NCBI GenBank assembly: GCA_016193365.1
Contig: JACPSI010000003.1
Location: forward strand, 1 to 38,820
Length of the DNA stretch: 38,820 nt
From: Ignavibacteriales bacterium
GTDB taxonomy: Bacteria; Bacteroidota; Ignavibacteria; UBA10030
Direction of reading: 5' to 3'
Of the stretch, positions 5,080-19,578 are shown piece by piece. The notes beneath the pieces are model-generated. The model was not told the origin of the DNA, made no database searches, and saw only the letters and a list, made by a program, of their open reading frames with translations. The translations under genes and the position numbers were made by a program. How positions within the stretch are numbered: the stretch's first letter is position 1; the number at the start of each line of letters is the position of its first letter.

Positions 5080-6423
5080 CTATCCGTTATAATGGTGCAG
5101 TTTATTGTGGAGCGTTTTTCGACTGATCCCCAGGATCCTTGCCGCCCGTGATTTGTTGTTGCCGACCGATGCGAGAGTCTGTTCGATAACGAGCTTTTCT
5201 GCAACATCCCTGGTCACCCCGATTGGAATTTTGATATGTTGCGATTGAGGGCTTTTGTTGGTGATGCGTTGTGGAAGGTGCTCTTCCCCGATAACGTTGT
5301 CGGGGCATGTCACGACGAGCCGCTCCAGAACATTCTTTAGTTCCCGCACATTACCGGGCCAGTCATTCTCAGTGAGAAGTTCCACGGCGCCTTCAGAGAG
5401 ACTCTGGTTGTGCTTCTTGTAGCGATTGCGAAACTCTGCAAAGAAATGTTGAGCAAGCAACGGGATATCTTCCTTCCGCTCGCGCAGAGGCGGCAGGTAG
5501 ATTTCGATCACACTGAAGCGATAGTAGAGGTCTTGTCGAAATTCACCTGATTTCAAGGCTGCGGCGATTTTCTTGTTCGTTGCCCCCACCATCCTCACGT
5601 CGACATGGACTTCCTCTTTACCTCCAAGACGCCGGAAGGAATGATGTTCGAGGACCCTGAGAAGCTTCGCCTGCGTGTCAGGGTTCATTTCGGCTATCTC
5701 ATCAAAAAAAAGAGTGCCTTCATTCGCCATTTCGAAGCATCCCGCCTTTTTCACCAAAGCACCCGTGAACGCGCCCCTCTCGTGCCCAAAGAGTTCGTTT
5801 TCGATCACATCCTTTGGAAGTGCAGCGCAATTGATCGCTACGAAAGGCTTGCCTGCTCTTCCGCTTTGTAGGTGAATGGAACGAGCAACAACTTCTTTGC
5901 CGGTTCCGCTGTCTCCCGTGATCAAGACGGCTGTTGTCGAGTTCGCGACGAGCTCGATTGCCGAGCGTACCTCCTCCATAGCAGGGCTTTGACCGATCAA
6001 CTCTACCTCGCCGTCACCGGACATGCCATCTCCCCCTTCCTCGCCGGGAGACTCAACATTCGATGTAATATTTTGCAGTATCGAATCTGCAAGCTGTTGT
6101 CCAATATTCGACGAATTCACAAAATCGACAGCTCCGCTTTTCACGGCTTTCACAGCCGCTTCCACTTTGCTTCGGCTGGCCGATAAGATGACCAGGACGG
6201 GCAATTTGTTCCTTTTGATGAACTCAAGCAATTTAAGCGGTTCGTCGCTCAGCGCCTCTTTTCTGTCGACAAGAAGTTGATACTTGCCCGAAAGCAGCTC
6301 CCGCTGAGCCTCGTCGAACGAACGGACTTCGTTTATTTCAATACCCTGATCGAACAACTGTTTTCGAAACTCCGGTGTCGTCGAACCATTTTGCGAAAAG
6401 AAAAGAATTCTCTGTTTCCCCAC
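5080..6423 (-). CDS. Sigma-54-dependent transcription activator with degenerate receiver
   Basis: This 447-residue NtrC-type protein opens sigma-54 RNA polymerase promoters. The AAA+ domain (about 140-375) has Walker A GDSGTGKE (170-177), the sigma-54 contact loop GAFTGA (217-222) and Walker B TLFFDE (237-242). A Fis-type helix-turn-helix lies at about 407-446 (RAARILGISRKTL). The N-terminal receiver-like domain (1-125) lacks the acidic pair near residue 10 (S10, Q11) and the conserved lysine near 103 (VNSS instead of a K-P motif); D53 may be a remnant phosphorylation site. Activation by normal phosphotransfer is therefore doubtful. The start is GTG with AGGAGG 7-8 bases upstream. No partner kinase is adjacent. 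Dyads in the region upstream could be its own operators. Confidence 0.93.
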   Translation of the reverse strand: MGKQRILFFSQNGSTTPEFRKQLFDQGIEINEVRSFDEAQRELLSGKYQLLVDRKEALSDEPLKLLEFIKRNKLPVLVILSASRSKVEAAVKAVKSGAVDFVNSSNIGQQLADSILQNITSNVESPGEEGGDGMSGDGEVELIGQSPAMEEVRSAIELVANSTTAVLITGDSGTGKEVVARSIHLQSGRAGKPFVAINCAALPKDVIENELFGHERGAFTGALVKKAGCFEMANEGTLFFDEIAEMNPDTQAKLLRVLEHHSFRRLGGKEEVHVDVRMVGATNKKIAAALKSGEFRQDLYYRFSVIEIYLPPLRERKEDIPLLAQHFFAEFRNRYKKHNQSLSEGAVELLTENDWPGNVRELKNVLERLVVTCPDNVIGEEHLPQRITNKSPQSQHIKIPIGVTRDVAEKLVIEQTLASVGNNKSRAARILGISRKTLHNKLHHYNG

Positions 6424-6898: not shown

Positions 6899-7570
6899 TC
6901 AGACGGCGGCTTCTGCTTTTACCACGCCCTCCTGAATGGCGAAACGCACAAGACTGGCTGTATCATGGATATCGAGCTTTTGCATCATGTTTGCACGGTG
7001 GGTGTTGACGGTACTTGCGCTTAAATAGAGCTTTTCGGCGATTTCTCTGCTCGTCAGGCCTTGTGCAATGTGCCGCAGGATCTCCTGTTCCCGTTTCGTG
7101 AGCTTTTGATCGATAAGGGATTTTTCCGGGCTTGGCTCCTTGGCTCTTTTCACGAATTTTTCGATAATCAACCTTGAAATATTCGGGCTAAAAAAGGGTT
7201 CCGCAGCAGCCACCGTTCGCACTGCTGTAAAGATCTCTTTTTTCTCCGCATCCTTCAGAACATACCCGTTCGCACCGGCGCGAATCATTTCGTAGATGTA
7301 TTCTTCATTTGCGTGAATGGTAAGGATGAGGACCTTGATTTGCGGGCTGTTTTCTTTGATTAGCCGTGTTGCTTCAATACCATTGAGTTTCGGCATCGAG
7401 ATATCCAGAATCGCGATATCCGGATTAAGGCGACCGGCGATACGAACCGCATCCTCTCCGTTCGAAGCCTCTCCGACGACGACAAATTCCTTCGTTGTCT
7501 TGAATAAAGACCGCAGGCCGCTGCGCACAACGCTGTGGTCGTCGGCAAGGATAATTCTGATTTTTTTCAT
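6899..7570 (-). CDS. NarL/FixJ-family response regulator
   Basis: This 223-residue two-component regulator has an intact receiver (1-122): acidic pair D10-D11, phosphorylated D56 (ILDISMP), T84 and K106. A LuxR-type helix-turn-helix at about 156-213 carries LTKREQEIL and the recognition helix region ASTVNTHRANM. Phosphorylation should promote dimerisation and DNA binding. Its ATG at 7570 overlaps the kinase stop as ATGA, so the two are translationally coupled and almost certainly cognate. NarL-type regulators normally pair with the DHp type found in that kinase. It is the DNA-binding output gene of the stressosome operon. Targets are unknown; the direct repeat just downstream (6798-6860) is one candidate site. 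Confidence 0.95.
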   Translation of the reverse strand: MKKIRIILADDHSVVRSGLRSLFKTTKEFVVVGEASNGEDAVRIAGRLNPDIAILDISMPKLNGIEATRLIKENSPQIKVLILTIHANEEYIYEMIRAGANGYVLKDAEKKEIFTAVRTVAAAEPFFSPNISRLIIEKFVKRAKEPSPEKSLIDQKLTKREQEILRHIAQGLTSREIAEKLYLSASTVNTHRANMMQKLDIHDTASLVRFAIQEGVVKAEAAV

Positions 7571-9756
7571 AATGGTATTTCCCGTGAAAGTGGTACTTCG
7601 ACGTGAACTGTCGTCCCTTTGCGGGGCGTCGAGTCGAGTTTAAATGCGCCGCCTATCAACATAGCACGTTCCTTCATGTTTATCAAGCCAAATCCCGACC
7701 AGTCTTTCCGCTGCGGCTGTGATTTGAATTCAAAACCCTTTCCGTTGTCGCGAATCGTTAGCGCCAGGGCATCGCTCTTTCGCTCCAGCTGAACTTCAAC
7801 CCTCCGCGCGCGGGCATGTTTCGAGACGTTGGCAAGAGCTTCCTGAGCGATCCGATAGATGGTTGTTTCTACCTGTACGTCCGTTCCATTCTGCATAATG
7901 CCCTGCGACGCAAAGCGTACTCTGATGCTGTTTGCTTGTTCAAACTCTCTGCAAAGAACTTGAAGAGCCTTGACAAGCCCCAGGTCATCGAGCGTCGAAG
8001 GTCGAAGGTTTGCAGAAATCCGCCTGATTTCATTGATCAAGCCGGTGATTTGTCTCCTCGTCCTTTTGAATTGCTTGAAAACGGCTAATTTTCGTTTTGG
8101 GTATTCCTCTTCAACTGCTTCCATATGAAGTTTTGTCGCTGTCAGGCGTTGACACACGTCGTCGTGAAGCTCCCGCGCAATCCTCCTTCGCTCTTCTTCC
8201 TGAGCCTCCACCACACGTCTGGCGAGTGCGTGCAGGGCTTCATGCGCCCGCTTCCGTTCTGTAATATCCTGGCCGGTTCCGACCATTTGGATGATGTTTC
8301 CTTTCTCGTCCACGACTACCTCTCCCCTCGCCTCGAGGAACCGAATCCCTCCATCCGGAAGTACAATGCGATGCTCATAGGCGAAGGGTTCTTTCAGTCG
8401 CAACGATTCTCCAACAATCTTTTTGACCTTTTCCCTATCCTCAGGGTGAACTCGCTCCAGAAACGCTTCGTATGATCCATCAAACTCATGCGGCTGGACG
8501 CCGTAAATACGGCACATCTCCTCCGACCACCCAACCTTGTTCTCTTCAATGTTCCATTCCCAGCTTCCGATATGTGCAAGTTGCTGAGCCGCAGCAAGGA
8601 GTTTTTCACTTTGTTTGAGCTTTTCGTCGGCAAGCTTACGTTCCGTGATATCCCTTGAAACGACCACAACCCGGTCTATTTTTCCATCCTTGTTCCGGAT
8701 AACGTTCCCCTGCGACTCGATGTGACGAACACCGCCTTTTTTCATGAGCAACCTGTATTCCTCCCGGTGTCCTAATCCCGTTCCAACCGTATTCGAAAAA
8801 ATCATTTTGATTCGTTCACGGTCGTCGGGATGAACATCTGCGAATGAATCTGAACCTTTCAGCTCTTCCGGAAAGCCCAGCAGGGGCCCATAGGAGGGGC
8901 TATTATACAGCCTCCGCCCTTCAGTGTCCAGAATTGCGATGAGATCCGTGATGTTTCCCGTGATGAGCCTGAACAATTCCTCGTTCTGTCGGAGCTTTTC
9001 CTCTGCCCGTTTCCTGGCGGTAATATCTCTGGCTACGCCCAGAACCCCGACAATGCTTGTGTTATTAAACTGGGGGGTTGTAACAAATTCTCCAACAAGG
9101 ATTTCACCTTTTCGGGAGAGAATGCGCAATTCAAACAGGGAAGGTGACTCCCCGCTCAATCCTTTCTTCAGCATCTGCACTGCAAACCCCAGGTCATCTG
9201 CATGGACAAGCGGATGAAAAGGCTTCCCGATCCATTCGGCTCTCGGCCATCCTGTAATATCCTCAAAGGCGGGGTTGAGGGTCGTAATGTTTCCCTCCGG
9301 CGAAAGTGTATAGATCACGTCTCTCGCGGTATCGATAAGCAGCCGGTATCGCTCTTCCGATTCGCGCAGCGCCTTTTCCGCCTGTTCCTTCTCATGTATT
9401 TCCTTTTCCAGTTGTTGGTTGATCTCAGCAAGGTCAGCCGCACGAACTTTTAAAGTCTCGATCGCCTCCTGGAATCCCCTGCTTGTCATTTCATAAGGCG
9501 AGAGGCTCTCCGCAAAAAACCTTGTCGCCGTCTGAACTTTACCGGCCAACTCATTATTCGATTGATCGTCACCGCGCACAATCGCATCGAGAACATCTTC
9601 GTGAATCTTAAGCAGGTCGAGGCATCCAATTCCCTCTTCCACGCCCCTCCGGCCGAGTTCGTAAACCCGCTCCAGCGCAGATTCACCCGTCCCTTTCAAA
9701 TATTCTTGAAGGAGCGCTCTGTAGATTTCAGCCAGCGACTGGATACTCTCTTTCAT
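7567..9756 (-). CDS. Cytoplasmic PAS histidine kinase with RsbU-N-like domain
   Basis: The 729-residue kinase has no membrane segment. Residues 1-103 resemble the N-terminal domain of RsbU, which binds RsbT in Bacillus (ALLQEYLKGTGE, YELGRRGVEEG, a FFAESLSPYEM helix). A coiled coil (about 104-133) leads to three PAS domains (about 134-250, 258-373, 385-501). The DHp domain is the NarX/DegS type, with H531 in RRIARELHDDVCQ. The ATPase domain has an N-box (EALANVSKHA, N643), G1 (DNGKGF, 670-675) and G2 (GFGL). The ATG at 9756 is chosen because it overlaps the rsbX stop as ATGA; a longer frame upstream would run deep into rsbX. It autophosphorylates, presumably, and passes phosphate to the regulator at 6899-7570. 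RsbU-N recognition is by eye; control by RsbT is inferred from position and domain. Confidence 0.92.
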   Translation of the reverse strand: MKESIQSLAEIYRALLQEYLKGTGESALERVYELGRRGVEEGIGCLDLLKIHEDVLDAIVRGDDQSNNELAGKVQTATRFFAESLSPYEMTSRGFQEAIETLKVRAADLAEINQQLEKEIHEKEQAEKALRESEERYRLLIDTARDVIYTLSPEGNITTLNPAFEDITGWPRAEWIGKPFHPLVHADDLGFAVQMLKKGLSGESPSLFELRILSRKGEILVGEFVTTPQFNNTSIVGVLGVARDITARKRAEEKLRQNEELFRLITGNITDLIAILDTEGRRLYNSPSYGPLLGFPEELKGSDSFADVHPDDRERIKMIFSNTVGTGLGHREEYRLLMKKGGVRHIESQGNVIRNKDGKIDRVVVVSRDITERKLADEKLKQSEKLLAAAQQLAHIGSWEWNIEENKVGWSEEMCRIYGVQPHEFDGSYEAFLERVHPEDREKVKKIVGESLRLKEPFAYEHRIVLPDGGIRFLEARGEVVVDEKGNIIQMVGTGQDITERKRAHEALHALARRVVEAQEEERRRIARELHDDVCQRLTATKLHMEAVEEEYPKRKLAVFKQFKRTRRQITGLINEIRRISANLRPSTLDDLGLVKALQVLCREFEQANSIRVRFASQGIMQNGTDVQVETTIYRIAQEALANVSKHARARRVEVQLERKSDALALTIRDNGKGFEFKSQPQRKDWSGFGLINMKERAMLIGGAFKLDSTPRKGTTVHVEVPLSREIPL

Positions 9757-10376
9757 GATTTCTGTCCCACATACCTCGCTACAAGGACCAGTGCGTCGTC
9801 TGTTCCTTTTCCGTACTGGGAACAAATTCGGCTTGCCGTTTTTCCAGGCGCTTCGTGGTTCGTGCGGATGAGCTCATAAAAACCACTTTTAATTCCATCT
9901 GTGGAAAACACAAGAGTATCTCCCTGCGAAATCTGAACGACTGATGCGTACAATTGGGGGAGCTGGTATCCGACAACACCGCCCCGTAACAACACAACTT
10001 CCTGAGCAGGATTTGCGTGAGGGTCGGCTCGAAAGAGAATTCCTTCAACATTGCCCACGCCAATCCATGTCATCGTATTTTCGACTAAGTCGATCGACGC
10101 AAGTGTCATGACAACACCTCGAGTCGGTATCAATTCCTCGTGTACCCGGCGTATTAAGGAAATCACGGATTCATCGGCGAAATTCTGCAAGATTTCAGCC
10201 GCGATAATCGCTGCCGCAGCTGCTTCGTTTCCGTGGCCTAAACCATCAATAGCGCCAACAAGCACGCCATTCTGAAAATGTTGGACCACATGACGGTCGC
10301 CAGACTCTGTTTGGCCTGGAAGCGTGATCGAGGAGACCCCCCAGTCGAGCAGCTTGCTCTCACGAGCCTGAGTCAT
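9753..10376 (-). CDS. rsbX: RsbX-like PP2C phosphatase
   Basis: This 207-residue protein is a single PP2C/SpoIIE-type phosphatase domain. Metal-binding aspartates are visible at D27 (ESGDRH), D44 (IDGLGHG), D160 (FSTDGI) and D193/D194 (GTDDAL). In Bacillus, RsbX removes phosphate from RsbS and RsbR, so the stressosome recaptures RsbT and the response ends. The small size, lack of any sensory domain and place directly after rsbT all match RsbX rather than RsbU. Its ATG at 10376 lies inside the end of rsbT (17-base overlap) with GGAG 8 bases upstream, and its stop overlaps the kinase start. That coupling suggests reset enzyme and kinase are made in fixed ratio. Confidence 0.88.
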   Translation of the reverse strand: MTQARESKLLDWGVSSITLPGQTESGDRHVVQHFQNGVLVGAIDGLGHGNEAAAAAIIAAEILQNFADESVISLIRRVHEELIPTRGVVMTLASIDLVENTMTWIGVGNVEGILFRADPHANPAQEVVLLRGGVVGYQLPQLYASVVQISQGDTLVFSTDGIKSGFYELIRTNHEAPGKTASRICSQYGKGTDDALVLVARYVGQKS

Positions 10377-10836
10377 AATCGGGGCTCCATTTTATCATGA
10401 CGACCGTTGTGCCTCCCCCAACATTAGATTGAATCTCAAACTCATCCATGAGTCTCCGACAACCGGGCAACCCCATTCCCAATCCTTTTCCCGTTGAATA
10501 TCCGTCCTGCATTGCCAAATGAATATCGGGAATTCCAGGGCCCTGATCGCGAGCGACGACAAGAATTCCCCGACGCGAGCTGCGTTGATGGGGGCTCACG
10601 GCCAACTCACCGCGCTTGGCAAAGTTGATAATATTGCGCGCAACCTCCGAGATCGCGGTTGCGATAAGGGTCATATCACTCACGGAAAAGCCCAGGCTCT
10701 CGGCCATCGCCCGCCCACGTTGGCGTGCAATGACAATATCCGCATCTGAAGCGATGGGAATGCGAATTTCCCCGTTCGCAGATAATGGCATGTTGGCCAG
10801 CATCGAACTGACAGACTCCTGGATCTTATTTTTCAC
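10360..10836 (-). CDS. rsbT: RsbT-like switch kinase
   Basis: This 158-residue GHKL-type serine/threonine kinase has an N-box (ISEVARNIINFA, N68), G1 box DQGPGI (97-102) and G2 segment STGKGLGMGLPG (114-125). In Bacillus, RsbT is held in the stressosome, phosphorylates RsbR and RsbS on stress, and is then free to bind a target. It is somewhat longer than Bacillus RsbT at both ends. The start is GTG at 10836, overlapping the rsbS stop as GTGA. Close association with rsbS and rsbR separates it from RsbW-type anti-sigma factors, which share the fold. The expected free-state partner RsbU is absent; the RsbU-N-like kinases here are the likely substitutes. Confidence 0.9.
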   Translation of the reverse strand: MKNKIQESVSSMLANMPLSANGEIRIPIASDADIVIARQRGRAMAESLGFSVSDMTLIATAISEVARNIINFAKRGELAVSPHQRSSRRGILVVARDQGPGIPDIHLAMQDGYSTGKGLGMGLPGCRRLMDEFEIQSNVGGGTTVVMIKWSPDYDSGS

Positions 10837-11240
10837 GCCTTGCGCCTCTTTTGACTCGATTGCCCCACTAACGCAAAACTCTTCCCTCCCTTTGTCCTTT
10901 GGTCCATGATCGCCAGGCCTTCCTCCAAATCCAGCGCGATTCGAACACTTTCCAGGGTCAGCCCCAGTTGAACCATAGCAAATGCAACTTCCGGCTGAAT
11001 TCCAACGATCACGGTATCCGCGCCACGAAGCCGTACCATATACGCCAGACTCCGAAGAGTGCGCGCTGCAAACGAGTCCATCACATCTAGAGCCGTTACA
11101 TCAATGATGACTCCTCTTGACCGGTATTTGCCTACTTGCATGACGAGGGCATCCTGCAATTTCAAAAGATCCTCGTCTGTGAGGGCTGCTTGAAAGGTGG
11201 CAATAAGGTAGGAACCTTGCTTTAGTATAGGGACTTCCAC
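10833..11240 (-). CDS. rsbS: RsbS-like STAS scaffold protein
   Basis: This 135-residue protein is one STAS domain and resembles Bacillus RsbS through its length, starting with the PILK segment near the N-terminus. S56 in LDVMDSFAAR is at the position of the Bacillus RsbS phosphorylation site Ser59. IQPEVA and ALDLEEGL also match the family. RsbS with RsbR forms the large stressosome core that holds RsbT; phosphorylation of this serine releases it. A C-terminal extension (about 115-135) ends in a basic run. The start is GTG at 11240 with AGGGAG about 9 bases upstream. There are 83 bases between the rsbR stop and this start. Confidence 0.92.
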   Translation of the reverse strand: MEVPILKQGSYLIATFQAALTDEDLLKLQDALVMQVGKYRSRGVIIDVTALDVMDSFAARTLRSLAYMVRLRGADTVIVGIQPEVAFAMVQLGLTLESVRIALDLEEGLAIMDQRTKGGKSFALVGQSSQKRRKA

Positions 11241-11323
11241 GATGCTTCTCCCTTGCGTTTAGTCGCGGTCTGGCTGCCCAAAAGTTGGCTATGCAATCGT
11301 CGGTTGCGGAATTGGAGGGCAGA

Positions 11324-12238
11324 TTATACCGACTGGGCCGTTTCGCTGATCGGCACGACCTTGTATCCAAGTAAGCGCTCGGCTTCTTCGATACCTCCTT
11401 GAAGGTCGCCGACGGTGTTCATTTTGGCAAGGTCAACGCCGATGGTAACAAGGGTTTGGGCAATCTCCGGCGAGAGACCGGTGACAATAACTGTGGCACC
11501 TAGTAAGCGCGTCGCCTCGACAGTCTGAACAAGTGCGTTTGCCACGTTTGAGTCCATGGCAGCTACACCCGTTATGTCGATAACAACGACTTTTGCACGG
11601 TTGGTACGAATTCCACGCAAGAGCTGTTCGGTCAACTGGCGGGAGCGTTGTGGATCGATAACGCCGATTATGGGAAGGATGAGTAATCGTTCACGAACCT
11701 GCAACACCGGCGTCGAAAGTTCACGGATGGCCTCTTGCTGTTGACGAATCGTCCGTTCACGTTCCTGAACGAAACCCACGGACACCGTGTTTGCGATTCT
11801 ATTTGCCGCCGGCTCATACGCATCGAGGATTCTGAACAGGAGCGCAAAGTCATGTTGATACTTTGCAAACAGCGACCGGGCAAGCACGTCACGCAAGAGA
11901 AGAACGATTCCGATAACTTCATGCGTTTCAACTCCACGAGGGATGATACGCTCTGACAGGTTGCGTGCGTATGCCTGCAGGGCTTCAAACGTCCCTGTTT
12001 CAAGCGCTTCCACGTAATTATCGTAAACGGCTGTCGCCTCGGTGAAGATTTCCTCCTGACTCATGGCTGTCAGAAGTTTTGCTTCGGTAATACGGCGAGC
12101 CCATTCCTGACGTAATTGCGTTCGGTTTTGTCTCAAGTGAGAGACAAGTTCCCGCAGCAACGCAATGTTGTCTTCTGCGGTGGAAGACTTTTCCGTCGTG
12201 AGGGTCCCAAGATCATGAAGATCATTTCTTTTGGGCAT
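11324..12238 (-). CDS. rsbR: RsbR-like stressosome sensor
   Basis: The 304-residue protein has an N-terminal helical domain of the RsbR/RsbRD type (about 22-165), a linker helix and a STAS domain (about 178-295). S230 in AMDSNVANAL occupies the STAS phosphorylation position (Thr205-like in Bacillus RsbRA). T176 in ELSTPV is near the linker site equivalent to Thr171. RsbR paralogues carry the sensory turrets of the stressosome; the signal is unknown. The start at 12238 is chosen because AAGGAGG lies 6 bases before it, while the longer frame to 12337 lacks a ribosome site. It is the first gene of the operon. Only one RsbR is seen, so its N-terminal domain may be the main input unless other copies lie elsewhere. 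Confidence 0.9.
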   Translation of the reverse strand: MPKRNDLHDLGTLTTEKSSTAEDNIALLRELVSHLRQNRTQLRQEWARRITEAKLLTAMSQEEIFTEATAVYDNYVEALETGTFEALQAYARNLSERIIPRGVETHEVIGIVLLLRDVLARSLFAKYQHDFALLFRILDAYEPAANRIANTVSVGFVQERERTIRQQQEAIRELSTPVLQVRERLLILPIIGVIDPQRSRQLTEQLLRGIRTNRAKVVVIDITGVAAMDSNVANALVQTVEATRLLGATVIVTGLSPEIAQTLVTIGVDLAKMNTVGDLQGGIEEAERLLGYKVVPISETAQSV

Positions 12239-14499: not shown

Positions 14500-17376
14500 T
14501 CAAACTGTGAGACTGTAAGAGAGAAGATCAGGTGTTCGACCTGCATGTACTTCTTGCAAAGTCCTTAAAAGTTTGTCCGCGGTGTAAGGCTTTTCCAGGA
14601 AAGCCTGCACCTGTAAACTCGCAGCTTCCGTCTCTTTCTTGTGCTCAGCGCGCCCGCTTGCAACGATAACGCGAACCTGTGGGTCGATTCGGCGAAGCGC
14701 CCGAATTGTCGCGATGCCATCCATCACGGGCATACTCATATCTGTTATGACCGCCTTGATTTCATTTTTGTTCTTTGCGAATAACCCCACCGCCTCCGTC
14801 CCTTCCATCGCCGTCAAGGCACGGTATCCATGCTTGACCAGGGTTGCCTTTGTCACCTCGAGAACCGAGGATTCATCGTCCACAATGAGAACCAGCTCCC
14901 CATTCCCAGGCCGAAGCGGAACCTGCTGCCTTTCTTCGGCGGCGGCCGTGTGTGCAGGAACGGCGGGAATATAAACACTGAATTGAGTTCCCTTGCCTAT
15001 TTCGCTGTAGGTATTGATGAATCCTTGATGGTTCTTGATGATCGCATGAACCGTCGACAACCCAAGCCCGGTGCCCTTTCCCGGCTCTTTTGTGGTAAAA
15101 AAGGGCTCGAAAATTCTATGAAGTTTGTCGGATGGAATCCCTGTGCCCGTGTCTGCAACCTGGATCATGACGTACGGTCCGGGTTTGGCGTCGAGGTGCA
15201 TCCGGGCATAGTGTTCGTCGAGGAGGATGTTCTCGGCGGCCAGAGTCAGCGTGCCACCATCGGGCATCGCGTCGCGTGCATTCACGGACAAATTCAAAAG
15301 TATCTGATGAAGTTGCGTTGCATCACCCATGATCGTCCACAGGTCCTTGTGAATGCTGGTTTGAGTCCGGATGGATTTCGGAAAGGTCTCTTCGCCGATT
15401 TTTGCCATTTCCTTGATAAGGTGCTTCAGCTGAACCTCAGCGCGCTCGCCATCGACCCTTCTTGCAACGGTCAGGATCTGCTTCACGATGTCTGCACCAC
15501 GTTTCGCGCTCGACTCAACCATATCCAGCATCCTCTGGCTCTCCTCATCACTCAGCCGATCCCTGAAGATTTCCGACGCCATGATGATCGGTGTAAGCAC
15601 ATTGTTGATGTCGTGAGCAATGCCGCCGGCCAGAAGTCCGATGGATTCCAGTTTTTGTGATTGGAGAAGCTGCTGTTCAAGCTGACGCCGTTCCGTCACA
15701 TCCCTCATGATGCCGCGATATGCAAGGATCTTTCCGACGCCGTCGCGCATGGCGCTTGCTGTCACCGCCACAGAGAGTCTCTGGCCATCCCTTTTTCGTT
15801 TCAGTGACAACTCGTAATCTTTCACGTAAAACTGGGTCCGCAAAAGTTCATGATACCGCCCCTGGTCCTCGGGTTGGACAAACAGGTCAACCATGGCTGT
15901 TTTGAGCAATTCTTCCTTCGATGAATATCCGAAAAGTTCCACACCCGCTGGATTGATATCCAGCAAAGAACCTTCCGGAGTGCTCACAAAAACAACGTCC
16001 TTTGACTCCTCGAACAGAGCACGATATTGTTCCTCGCTTTTGCGAAGCTCCTCTTCTGCCTGGTTTTCCTTTGTAATATCCCGGGAGATTCCCATGTACC
16101 CGATAACCGATCCGGCAGCATCCTTCAACAGGGACGCTGACAACAGGCTGGGAAATGTGTCTCCGTTTTTTCGCTTGTTCATCACTTCCTGCGTATAGCC
16201 GCCCTTGTGCACCGTGTTCTTGTGCACTTCCCGGGAATCTCCGGGTGTTGCATACAGGGTGCCAACATCTTTTCCGAGAATTTCTTCCCTCGTGAAACCG
16301 AACGTCTCCTGTGCTGCAAGGTTGAATTCGATGATTTTCCGGTCTTTGTCCACCGCAATAATCATGTCGAGCGAGCTGTCGATAATGTTTCGTGCGTATT
16401 CCTGGGAAAGGCGAAGAGCTTCTTCGGTGCGCTTGCGTTCATGTATTTCCGCAAGCAGACGCTCATTGGTGGCCTGAAGCTCTGATGTTCTCTCTTCGAC
16501 GCGAACTTCGAGCTGGTCTTTTGCCTTATTGAGCTCGCTCCGCATCGTGGCGAGCTCTTTATTCCTCGTCAACAGCTGTTCGTTGATTTCGTGGAGTTGC
16601 TCTGTTTTTTCGGACAACCCCCTTCGAATTCTCCCGAGATTGAGTATGGCAATTTTCTCTCTGTCGAGCAGAATATCGGGCAGAAGGTCGATCACAACGG
16701 GAAACGTTTCAAGGCCGATATAACGGTCAGCGAGATTTCCATAGGACTCCTCGTAAATACGGCTTACAGCTCTTTCTCCCAAACTCGATTCAAGTTTCTC
16801 GTAGAAAGTCCTTGAACACTTCCGAAGGAATCCTATCCATTCCGATTCCTTCAAGGGTACTGATTGGGTTACTCCGAGCAAGGGAACCATCCCTGAAACG
16901 TGGGGAATTTTGTTGACCCATTGAAGAGCGGAGCCAATGTCTTCCTGTAAGCGCCCCCACGCGCTCGATCCAGCCAGGCTAAGCACCAACGACAAGAACC
17001 GCTGGCACAACAGCAATTCCTGGCGTTCGGTCGGGTAAAAAATGAGCTTGAAATTCGGATGACCCTCCAGAACCTGCGCATAGCGGGTTTTCACAATCTC
17101 CCGGAGTTGCTCCCGAAGAAACTTCTTGTACGGGTCCAGCTCAACGAGATATTGCTCGACCTCGAGGTAGATGGCAGGAAGGCTCGATAATTGCTCTGCC
17201 GGCTCCTGAGAACGGAAGGACTCCACCGCATGCACGACCGACGATGCTGACTGAAGGTCCGAGATATGACTTTGGAGAAAATCGATGAGACTTACGGCAG
17301 ATGAAGGGCGCGAAGCCTCCCTTGTTTTCGCCTGCTCGGCGTGTTTGAGTGACGGGTCTCGTATCCAGGTGAACAT
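14500..17376 (-). CDS. Hybrid histidine kinase with two PAS domains and receiver
   Basis: The 958-residue cytoplasmic kinase has an N-terminal helical region that I do not recognise (about 25-250), a coiled coil (about 250-318), two PAS domains (about 323-437 and 446-563), a HisKA domain with H588 (GGIAHDINNVL), an ATPase domain with intact N-box (NLSVNARDAM, N699), G1 (DTGTGI, 742-747) and G2 (GKGTGLGLS), and a C-terminal receiver (about 826-945) with D833/D834, phosphorylatable D879 (ITDMSMP) and K929. It should autophosphorylate and pass phosphate to its own receiver, then perhaps through an HPt protein not seen here. GAGG lies 7 bases before the ATG. The C-terminal half closely resembles the kinase encoded just upstream, but here the catalytic boxes are complete, so this may be the active partner of a pair. 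Confidence 0.95.
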   Translation of the reverse strand: MFTWIRDPSLKHAEQAKTREASRPSSAVSLIDFLQSHISDLQSASSVVHAVESFRSQEPAEQLSSLPAIYLEVEQYLVELDPYKKFLREQLREIVKTRYAQVLEGHPNFKLIFYPTERQELLLCQRFLSLVLSLAGSSAWGRLQEDIGSALQWVNKIPHVSGMVPLLGVTQSVPLKESEWIGFLRKCSRTFYEKLESSLGERAVSRIYEESYGNLADRYIGLETFPVVIDLLPDILLDREKIAILNLGRIRRGLSEKTEQLHEINEQLLTRNKELATMRSELNKAKDQLEVRVEERTSELQATNERLLAEIHERKRTEEALRLSQEYARNIIDSSLDMIIAVDKDRKIIEFNLAAQETFGFTREEILGKDVGTLYATPGDSREVHKNTVHKGGYTQEVMNKRKNGDTFPSLLSASLLKDAAGSVIGYMGISRDITKENQAEEELRKSEEQYRALFEESKDVVFVSTPEGSLLDINPAGVELFGYSSKEELLKTAMVDLFVQPEDQGRYHELLRTQFYVKDYELSLKRKRDGQRLSVAVTASAMRDGVGKILAYRGIMRDVTERRQLEQQLLQSQKLESIGLLAGGIAHDINNVLTPIIMASEIFRDRLSDEESQRMLDMVESSAKRGADIVKQILTVARRVDGERAEVQLKHLIKEMAKIGEETFPKSIRTQTSIHKDLWTIMGDATQLHQILLNLSVNARDAMPDGGTLTLAAENILLDEHYARMHLDAKPGPYVMIQVADTGTGIPSDKLHRIFEPFFTTKEPGKGTGLGLSTVHAIIKNHQGFINTYSEIGKGTQFSVYIPAVPAHTAAAEERQQVPLRPGNGELVLIVDDESSVLEVTKATLVKHGYRALTAMEGTEAVGLFAKNKNEIKAVITDMSMPVMDGIATIRALRRIDPQVRVIVASGRAEHKKETEAASLQVQAFLEKPYTADKLLRTLQEVHAGRTPDLLSYSLTV

Positions 17377-17400: not shown

Positions 17401-19578
17401 TCAGTTCTTTCGGAGTACTTCGTTCACTGTGTGGACAAGCCTATCGGCGGTGTATGGTTTGGGGAGGAACGAGATCCCATCCTTGCCAATAACTTCTTCC
17501 ACCTGTTCCCTTGAAGTTAACCCGCTTGTTGCGATGATCCTGGCATTCTCGTCGATCTGCAGTATTGCCCGTATCGCTGTATCGCCGTTCATGCATGGCA
17601 TCATGATATCGGTAAGCACAAGCTTGATTTCCGGACAGTGTTCGACAAACATCGCCACCGCTTCCGCACCATCGCTCGCGGTAACCACTTTGTATCCGAA
17701 TGTTTCCAGAGTCGCTTTTGTAATTTCACGAATTGCCGCTTCATCGTCGACAACAAGAATGACCTCTCCTTTGCCCAGAGGCAACTCGCGTTTTCGCTTC
17801 TGGGTTACTTCAGGTTCTTGTGTGTGGATGGCAGGCAGATAAATTCTGAAGTGTGTTCCTTTTCCCACTTCGCTCTCGACACGGATGAACCCCTCATGAC
17901 TCTTTACGATACTGAGGACGGTTGACAAGCTGATCCCCAGATGAGCATTACTTTCAGCGGTTGTGAAAAAGGGGTCAAAGATTCTCTCAATATGATCCTT
18001 TGGAATACCCTTGCCACTATCTGACACGGATATGACAACATACGGACCAGCTTTGGCTTCGGGGTCCATGCCGGCGTAATTTTGGTCTAAGATGATATTT
18101 TCTACTTTGATGGAAAAAACGCCTCCGTGGGGCATGGCGTTGTTGGCATAGACACAAAGACTCATGAACAATTGTTGTAACTGCGTTATGTCGCCCTGAA
18201 TCGGCCAGACATCCTGAGCAACATGAACCCTTGTCTCGACAGCCTTCGGGAGCGCTCCTTCAGCAAACTCTTTGAGCTCTTCGAGGACCGGTTCCAATTG
18301 CAGCGGTGCTTTCTGACCTTCAATACCCCTGGCAAAAGTCAGAATCTGTTTGATCATGTTGGCGCCGCGCTTGATGTTGGCTTCAATCGATTCCACGACG
18401 TTGTGGTGATCCGTGCCGGGCAGTGAGCGCCCCAACGCCTGCACTCCGAGGAGAATAGGCGAAAGCACGTCGTTGAGATCATGGGCAATTCCGCTTGCGA
18501 GAGTCCCCAGGCTTTCCATCCGCCGTGCCCGCAGAAGCCTGGCTTCCAGATTCTTGCGTTCAGTGACATCGGTGTTCACGATGAAGATCGACCGGGGCGA
18601 ATCCTCTCCATTCCGAATCAACATCCAGCGACTTTCTACGACAAGTTCCTTGCCATCCTTATTTTTGTGGGACCACGTTCCATGCCAATCACCATTCCTC
18701 AGAACGAATTCAAGCGCACTGGGGATTTCCGAGGAACCATTGCTCGACATCGTCGTCGCTATTTGTTTTCCCAATGCTCGTTCCGCATCGTACCCAAAAA
18801 ATTGTTGGGCATTCTTATTCCAATAGGTAATCGTGCCAGTGAGGTCGCAGACCACTATGGCATCGTCGGTGACATCAAGGAGGGCCGCCTGCTCGCGAAT
18901 TCTTTCCTCAGCCCTTTTGCGCTCCGTAATGTCCCTTGCAATACCAAGCACGCCCACGACGCTTCCATCCTGGTATTGCGGCGTTGCCTTAAATTCGCCC
19001 ACCAGCACGGCTCCGGATTTTGAAATCAAGCGCAGCTCAAACATCGACGGAACCTGGCCTCGCAAGGTCTTTTCAAACATTTCGATCGCACGGCCCAAAT
19101 CCTCATGATGGATGAGTCCTACAAAATGTTTGCCTATCCACTCTTCTCTCGGCCAACCGGTGATGGTTTCGAATACCGGATTCAGAGATGTCAGAGTCCC
19201 GTGCACGGAGAGCGTATAAATAACATCGAGGGCGCTTTCCACCAGAGTTCGGTATCTCTCCTCCGAGGATTTCAGCGTCACGATCGCATCCTGAAACCCT
19301 CTATGACTCATCTCTATGGGCGCAAGAATCTCCGCAAAGAAATTTGACCCGAGCTTTGCAACTCTCATCCCCTCTTCGGGACTCGGGACATGCACCAGAT
19401 TTGTTGCAAGGGCGTCGTGATGGACGAGGGCCAGATCGATGCTCCCCATTCCTTCTTCGACGGCTTTCCGGCCTAATTCAAAAGCGCGTTTTAGTGCCAA
19501 CTCACCTGCTCCGGCAAGATAACTGCGTAGGGCAGCCTTGTAGTCCTGAGCAAGCTCGTGTGTTCTTACGGTCATCAT
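17401..19578 (-). CDS. Hybrid histidine kinase with RsbU-N-like domain and degenerate ATPase core
   Basis: The 725-residue protein opens with an RsbU-N-like domain (1-103) very similar to the stressosome-operon kinase: RSYLAGAGE, FELGRKAVEEG, FFAEILAPIEM and RGFQDAI. Two PAS domains follow (about 105-222 and 228-342), then HisKA with H366 (SGIAHDLNDVL), an ATPase-like domain and a receiver (about 604-722) with D611/D612, D657 (LTDIMMP) and K707. The ATPase domain keeps G1 (DSGKGI) but the N-box reads FMSLCVYANNAM, with serine and tyrosine at the two usual asparagines, and G2 reads NAHLGISLS instead of GKGTGLGLS. ATP binding is therefore doubtful. Its ATG overlaps the VWA-FHA stop as ATGA. It may be a pseudokinase or be phosphorylated by the kinase downstream. 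Confidence 0.94.
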   Translation of the reverse strand: MMTVRTHELAQDYKAALRSYLAGAGELALKRAFELGRKAVEEGMGSIDLALVHHDALATNLVHVPSPEEGMRVAKLGSNFFAEILAPIEMSHRGFQDAIVTLKSSEERYRTLVESALDVIYTLSVHGTLTSLNPVFETITGWPREEWIGKHFVGLIHHEDLGRAIEMFEKTLRGQVPSMFELRLISKSGAVLVGEFKATPQYQDGSVVGVLGIARDITERKRAEERIREQAALLDVTDDAIVVCDLTGTITYWNKNAQQFFGYDAERALGKQIATTMSSNGSSEIPSALEFVLRNGDWHGTWSHKNKDGKELVVESRWMLIRNGEDSPRSIFIVNTDVTERKNLEARLLRARRMESLGTLASGIAHDLNDVLSPILLGVQALGRSLPGTDHHNVVESIEANIKRGANMIKQILTFARGIEGQKAPLQLEPVLEELKEFAEGALPKAVETRVHVAQDVWPIQGDITQLQQLFMSLCVYANNAMPHGGVFSIKVENIILDQNYAGMDPEAKAGPYVVISVSDSGKGIPKDHIERIFDPFFTTAESNAHLGISLSTVLSIVKSHEGFIRVESEVGKGTHFRIYLPAIHTQEPEVTQKRKRELPLGKGEVILVVDDEAAIREITKATLETFGYKVVTASDGAEAVAMFVEHCPEIKLVLTDIMMPCMNGDTAIRAILQIDENARIIATSGLTSREQVEEVIGKDGISFLPKPYTADRLVHTVNEVLRKN

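Follow-up and report, generated by a model that had tools for sequence, protein, structure and literature searches.

A stressosome operon in an Ignavibacteriales genome with a putative output through a histidine kinase carrying an RsbU-type N-terminal domain

The 38,820-nucleotide stretch analyzed here (the window; positions 1 to 38,820 of contig JACPSI010000003.1, assembly GCA_016193365.1), from an Ignavibacteriales bacterium of the Bacteroidota, contains a six-gene operon that probably forms an RsbRSTX stressosome with a two-component output, in which freed RsbT would bind the RsbU_N domain and adjoining linker of a PAS histidine kinase (HK1) and set its activity, with phosphate then passing to a NarL-type response regulator. 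Docking of RsbT on HK1, a binding supported by homology, appears to be the best explanation of the arrangement, and it is favored because RsbU_N and RsbT co-occur, the gene order is shared across phyla, the fold predicted for the HK1 N-terminus is of the expected type, and one interface residue, Glu24, is invariant.

The preliminary description of this DNA had likened residues 1-103 of the kinase to the RsbT-binding domain of RsbU, and a profile search agrees: residues 11-89 match the Pfam family RsbU_N (PF08673) with an E-value of 8e-10 and 39.2 bits, well over the curated cut-off of 25.5 bits and thus not by chance. The HK1 N-terminus alone finds RsbU weakly in the PDB (E-values of 0.7-1.3) and a profile is needed; one built from 61 RsbU_N domains has the Bacillus subtilis RsbU chains 2j70, 2j6z, and 1w53 as its best solved matches (2e-7), covering almost the full length of the RsbU fragment. 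In the AlphaFold2 model a helical bundle is followed by a single helix at residues 86-130, with a mean pLDDT (predicted local distance difference test) of 94.9. In structure comparison the predicted fold scores highest against the C-terminal domain of KaiA (Z 10-11), with RsbU (1w53/2j6z) at Z 7.8; KaiA and RsbU belong to one SCOP fold class, and because helical bundles easily reach mid-range scores, the fold comparison is taken as support only. Behind this domain HK1 has three PAS domains and a kinase core (HisKA_3, 5e-16; HATPase_c, 8e-14) with an intact phospho-acceptor histidine and intact N, G1, and G2 boxes (motifs ELHDD, NVSKHA, DNGKGF, and GFGL), and the NarL-type regulator has Response_reg (1e-29) and GerE (7e-21) domains.

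The operon is encoded on the minus strand, from position 12238 down to 6899, in the order rsbR, rsbS, rsbT, rsbX, HK1, and NarL-type regulator. All six genes lie where the preliminary description had placed them, each with Pfam support, and the overlapping starts and stops that it reported are found at every gene from rsbT onward (Table 1). RsbR has a STAS domain (9e-16) and an RsbRD_N match slightly under the cut-off (22 bits); it matches solved Listeria RsbR over its full length in a PDB sequence search (1e-32), and its AlphaFold2 model resembles the Listeria stressosome 7b0u (Foldseek, 2.7e-12). The second RsbR phosphosite, Thr262, is invariant, and the first is a serine replacing threonine. 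RsbS, also a STAS protein (2e-13), matches solved Listeria RsbS (1.4e-23) and retains the phospho-serine motif DSF. RsbT contains a HATPase_c domain (5e-12); its nearest solved structures by sequence are of SpoIIAB, with no solved RsbT among its matches. The closest named relative is an Ignavibacteriales genome. RsbX is a SpoIIE/PP2C protein (6e-12) with PDB matches to Moorella 3zt9 (1e-16) and RsbX 3w40 (4e-9). The sequence features of a stressosome module, adjacent rsbR-S-T-X genes and Ser/Thr phosphosites in RsbS and RsbR, are present. Sequence searches of the genome, on which all statements about it rest, detect a single RsbT, only two RsbU_N stretches, both in histidine kinases, and no RsbU-type phosphatase (RsbU_N plus PP2C); elsewhere in the genome there are 12 other SpoIIE phosphatase stretches and three stand-alone HATPase_c_2 proteins. 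The reported lack of RsbU, RsbV, RsbW, and sigma-B holds within the operon, and for the genome it holds in the narrower form that no RsbU_N phosphatase is present, no sigma-B search of the genome having been made.

RsbU_N and RsbT are closely associated across genomes. Within the order, RsbU_N is present in 12 of 98 genomes and clear RsbT, scoring at least 98 bits against 55 bits for the next match, in exactly the same 12. A draw of 395 genomes from the phylum yields RsbU_N over the cut-off in eight, all eight with RsbT, and clear RsbT in 16, such that RsbT occurs without RsbU_N and the converse does not; these counts, like those for the order, are uncorrected for kinship. The layout of rsbR-S-T-X, RsbU_N kinase, and NarL regulator recurs within the order, and the segment between RsbU_N and the kinase core varies from three PAS domains to one PAS, a GAF domain (G022), or none (G023, with RsbU_N joined straight to HisKA_3), leaving RsbU_N as the constant input. 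The kinase of G042 is truncated and adjoins restriction-modification genes.

A wider survey covers the 80 loci closest to the window RsbT (the best 80 of 519, many from metagenome-assembled genomes), and its shares describe this set rather than all stressosomes. Labels include Bacteroidota, Acidobacteria, Verrucomicrobia, Proteobacteria, Chloroflexi, Actinobacteria, Armatimonadetes, Planctomycetota, Methanoperedens archaea, and others, and an RsbU_N protein lies beside the RsbT module at 77 of the 80 loci. The carriers are 61 histidine kinases, two PP2C phosphatases, and seven small effector-less proteins, the rest being cut or unclear. A probable output through an RsbU_N histidine kinase is therefore widespread across phyla and the commonest arrangement among the surveyed loci, not a proteobacterial curiosity. 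Apparent RsbX-RsbU_N fusions at several loci were rejected, the long open reading frames being another frame over a separate rsbX, and a free-standing RsbU_N of 145 amino acids (aa) in L063/G089 is probably a frameshift, the next open reading frame starting just inside the PAS domain.

In the proposed mechanism, RsbR and RsbS would build the stressosome and retain RsbT; on sensing of a signal by RsbR, RsbT would phosphorylate RsbS and RsbR and be released. Free RsbT would then bind dimeric HK1 at the helical RsbU_N domain and the linker helix behind it and, as with RsbU, would order this linker and so set, most likely raise, the autokinase activity of HK1. Phosphate would pass from HK1 to the NarL-type regulator, altering transcription, and RsbX would reset the stressosome. 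We infer both the sign of the RsbT effect and the phosphotransfer from HK1 to the regulator. HisKA_3 kinases are often bifunctional, and docked RsbT might instead inhibit HK1 or switch it to a phosphatase mode, with RsbT release turning the regulator off; this is unlikely, given that the effect of RsbT on RsbU is activating and that linker ordering into an active dimer is what the published model predicts (PMC12143880).

The RsbT-RsbU interface is reported to involve RsbU Glu24, Tyr28, Ile74, Ile78, and Arg91 and RsbT Arg19, Arg23, Asn24, and Asp92 (PMC12143880). In 77 paired sequences, the position of RsbU Glu24 is Glu in all 77, and RsbT Arg19 is kept in all but one, Arg23 in all but three, and Asp92 in 63; Arg38 and Arg42 of the window RsbT correspond to B. 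subtilis Arg19 and Arg23. (Of the B. subtilis RsbU and RsbT sequences used for numbering, the RsbU part agrees with the PDB alignment.) Several observations count against RsbT docking on HK1. The contacts RsbU Tyr28, Ile74, and Ile78 and RsbT Asn24 are not conserved in these pairs, and the RsbU Arg91 linker contact can be aligned in two registers. Covariation between RsbT and RsbU_N in the 77 pairs gives top scores no higher than an RsbS-RsbU_N control and is evidence neither way. In Vibrio, RsbT gave no positive interaction with the downstream protein VvD1, which is without RsbU_N (PMC9237108). From the alignments we infer that one charged RsbT contact may be ancestral and the rest of the interface remodeled.

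Partial conservation of the known RsbT contacts would also fit a role for RsbU_N as merely a dimerization module of HK1, which would be driven by its three PAS domains and linked to the stressosome genes for co-expression; RsbU_N does dimerize RsbU (PMC12143880). This is improbable, in that no RsbT-less genome in the order or phylum set has RsbU_N over the cut-off and RsbU_N is retained where PAS domains are absent. Just as improbable is that RsbT, which has a GHKL kinase fold, is not an activator docked on HK1 but a serine/threonine protein kinase that phosphorylates it transiently, as suggested for Vibrio VvD1 (PMC9237108); that proposal concerned proteins without RsbU_N, whereas HK1 has the docking domain, and the occurrence of this domain follows that of RsbT.

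The idea of a stressosome acting through an RsbU_N kinase is not new, having been proposed in PMC9237108 (2022) and PMC12143880 (2025). Heinz et al. (2022; PMC9237108) noted RsbU_N on some proteins downstream of RSTX modules and inferred RsbT docking. Those modules share with the present operon the rsbR-S-T-X order, a two-component output, and an N-terminal RsbU_N on some downstream proteins, but they are proteobacterial with a globin RsbR, whereas this operon is from Ignavibacteriales (Bacteroidota) and the survey adds Acidobacteria, Verrucomicrobia, Chloroflexi, Methanoperedens archaea, and others. Baral et al. (2025; PMC12143880) described the RsbU N-terminal domain on the histidine kinase NreB, with such kinases in rsbT operons and an AlphaFold dimer. 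The domain, its occurrence on kinases of rsbT operons, and the proposed RsbT linker mechanism are the same as here; the protein modeled there is gammaproteobacterial, and in HK1 three PAS domains separate the docking domain from the kinase, with another RsbU_N kinase 10 kb off. The Moorella thermoacetica system, as cited in PMC12143880 (Quin et al. 2012), likewise has a stressosome, RsbT, and an RsbU_N effector that is not a phosphatase, the RsbU_N-GAF-GGDEF protein MtG, although according to that account the effector is a diguanylate cyclase rather than a histidine kinase. With the B. subtilis RsbRST-RsbU-RsbVW-sigma-B pathway the operon shares RsbR, RsbS, RsbT, RsbX, and the RsbU_N docking domain, but the genome has no RsbU_N phosphatase, rsbX precedes the effector, and the output is a kinase and NarL-type regulator. 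This is thus a known kind of wiring in a new lineage, and relative to the open-licence literature its spread over many phyla and the presence of two such kinases may be new. The four small proteins, kinase, and regulator offer a simple, assayable set in which to test whether RsbU_N is, as published, an exchangeable switch operated by RsbT.

Table 1. Features of the stressosome operon and associated genes in the window
Feature	Coordinates	Strand	Basis	Protein length; start
rsbR, sensor/scaffold with N-terminal helical (globin-like) domain and STAS domain	11324..12238	-	Pfam, PDB, AlphaFold2/Foldseek	304 aa; ATG 12238, preceded by AAGGAGG (good ribosome-binding site)
rsbS, STAS scaffold and RsbT antagonist	10833..11240	-	Pfam STAS, PDB match	135 aa; GTG 11240, 83-base gap to rsbR
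rsbT, GHKL kinase released on stress	10360..10836	-	Pfam HATPase_c	158 aa; GTG 10836, 4-base overlap with rsbS stop
rsbX, PP2C-type feedback phosphatase	9753..10376	-	Pfam SpoIIE, PDB match	207 aa; ATG 10376, 17-base overlap with rsbT
HK1, histidine kinase RsbU_N-PAS-PAS-PAS-HisKA_3-HATPase_c	7567..9756	-	Pfam	729 aa; ATG 9756, overlapping rsbX stop (ATGA)
Putative RsbU_N docking domain of HK1, residues 11-89	9490..9726	-	PF08673, profile versus PDB, AlphaFold2	
Long helix of HK1, residues 86-130, RsbU_N to PAS, corresponding in position to the RsbU coiled-coil linker	9367..9501	-	AlphaFold2 secondary structure	
NarL-type response regulator, likely HK1 partner	6899..7570	-	Pfam; start overlaps HK1 stop	223 aa; ATG 7570, 4-base overlap with HK1 stop
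Sigma-54 enhancer-binding protein, degenerate receiver, conserved operon neighbor	5080..6423	-	Pfam Sigma54_activat 1e-66	
HK2, RsbU_N-PAS-PAS-HisKA-HATPase_c-REC, probable pseudokinase	17401..19578	-	RsbU_N 28.1 bits; degenerate N and G2 boxes	
HK3, hybrid kinase encoded immediately downstream of HK2; ATP site intact	14500..17376	-	Pfam; same arrangement in sister genome L043	

The second RsbU_N kinase, HK2, lies in the same window about 10 kb from HK1; its domain scores over the Pfam cut-off and is 37% identical to that of HK1. HK2 is part of a gene run (PP2C, Ser/Thr kinase, vWA/FHA protein, HK2, HK3) common to the sister genome, and its start overlaps the stop of the vWA/FHA gene. In both genomes the N box reads CVYAN(N/S)AM, compared with CVNARDAM in relatives, and the G2 box LGISLST, compared with TGLGLST, such that HK2 is a probable pseudokinase as judged from these motifs; the phospho-acceptor histidine and receiver aspartate are retained. 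RsbU_N also outnumbers clear RsbT in G035, which belongs to the genus of the window, and in G046, G482, and G520. A tentative possibility is that one stressosome has two outputs, with the single detected RsbT controlling both HK1 and HK2, the latter as an RsbT-gated pseudokinase or a phosphotransfer scaffold working with the intact HK3; this would connect the stressosome with a phosphorelay and with Ser/Thr phosphorylation. Such an arrangement would allow asking whether one freed RsbT pool serves several outputs. The roughly 320 N-terminal residues of HK3 that precede its PAS domains have no convincing Pfam match.

Most loci of the order, the window included, have the sigma-54 activator gene next to the operon, and the product of this gene may be part of the stressosome-kinase system. 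A sigma-54 promoter search near the operon gave one match in the window, at chance level, and sigma-70 promoter matches are at the level of shuffled sequence.

RsbR, in the window and at loci L062-L140, is unusually conserved. Among 22 loci chosen from its better-conserved group and spanning several phyla, it is 70-98% identical at the amino acid level (median, 80%), with third codon positions near saturation (0.41); in the same comparison identity is 59% for RsbT, 46% for RsbX, and 40% for RsbU_N. This conservation suggests strong purifying selection rather than recent transfer. RsbR proteins of another group (Methanoperedens and others) are just 54-60% identical to that of the window.

Some relatives have unusual RsbT and RsbU_N contexts. 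At the actinobacterial loci L095, L096, L107, L108, L110, L137, and L138, RsbT is the C-terminal part of a 359- to 440-aa protein with sigma-70 regions 2 and 4 in its N-terminal half, followed by rsbR, rsbS, and, at most of these loci, an effector-less RsbU_N protein that stands alone (about 105-127 aa). Such a fusion of sigma factor and stressosome kinase would allow direct holding and release of sigma by the stressosome; no publication on it was found in the open-licence literature. Tandem RsbT-like genes, the short one adjoining a protein of about 340 aa, are present in G334, G116, G489, and G277, with no RsbU_N match in the phylum search in G334, G116, and G277 and two in G489. In an Armatimonadetes metagenome-assembled genome (L151, 415-1131), RsbU_N is fused to a V4R domain beside genes that by eye encode a STAS protein, a HATPase, and KaiC-like ATPases; the fold predicted for RsbU_N is similar to that of the KaiA C-terminal domain.

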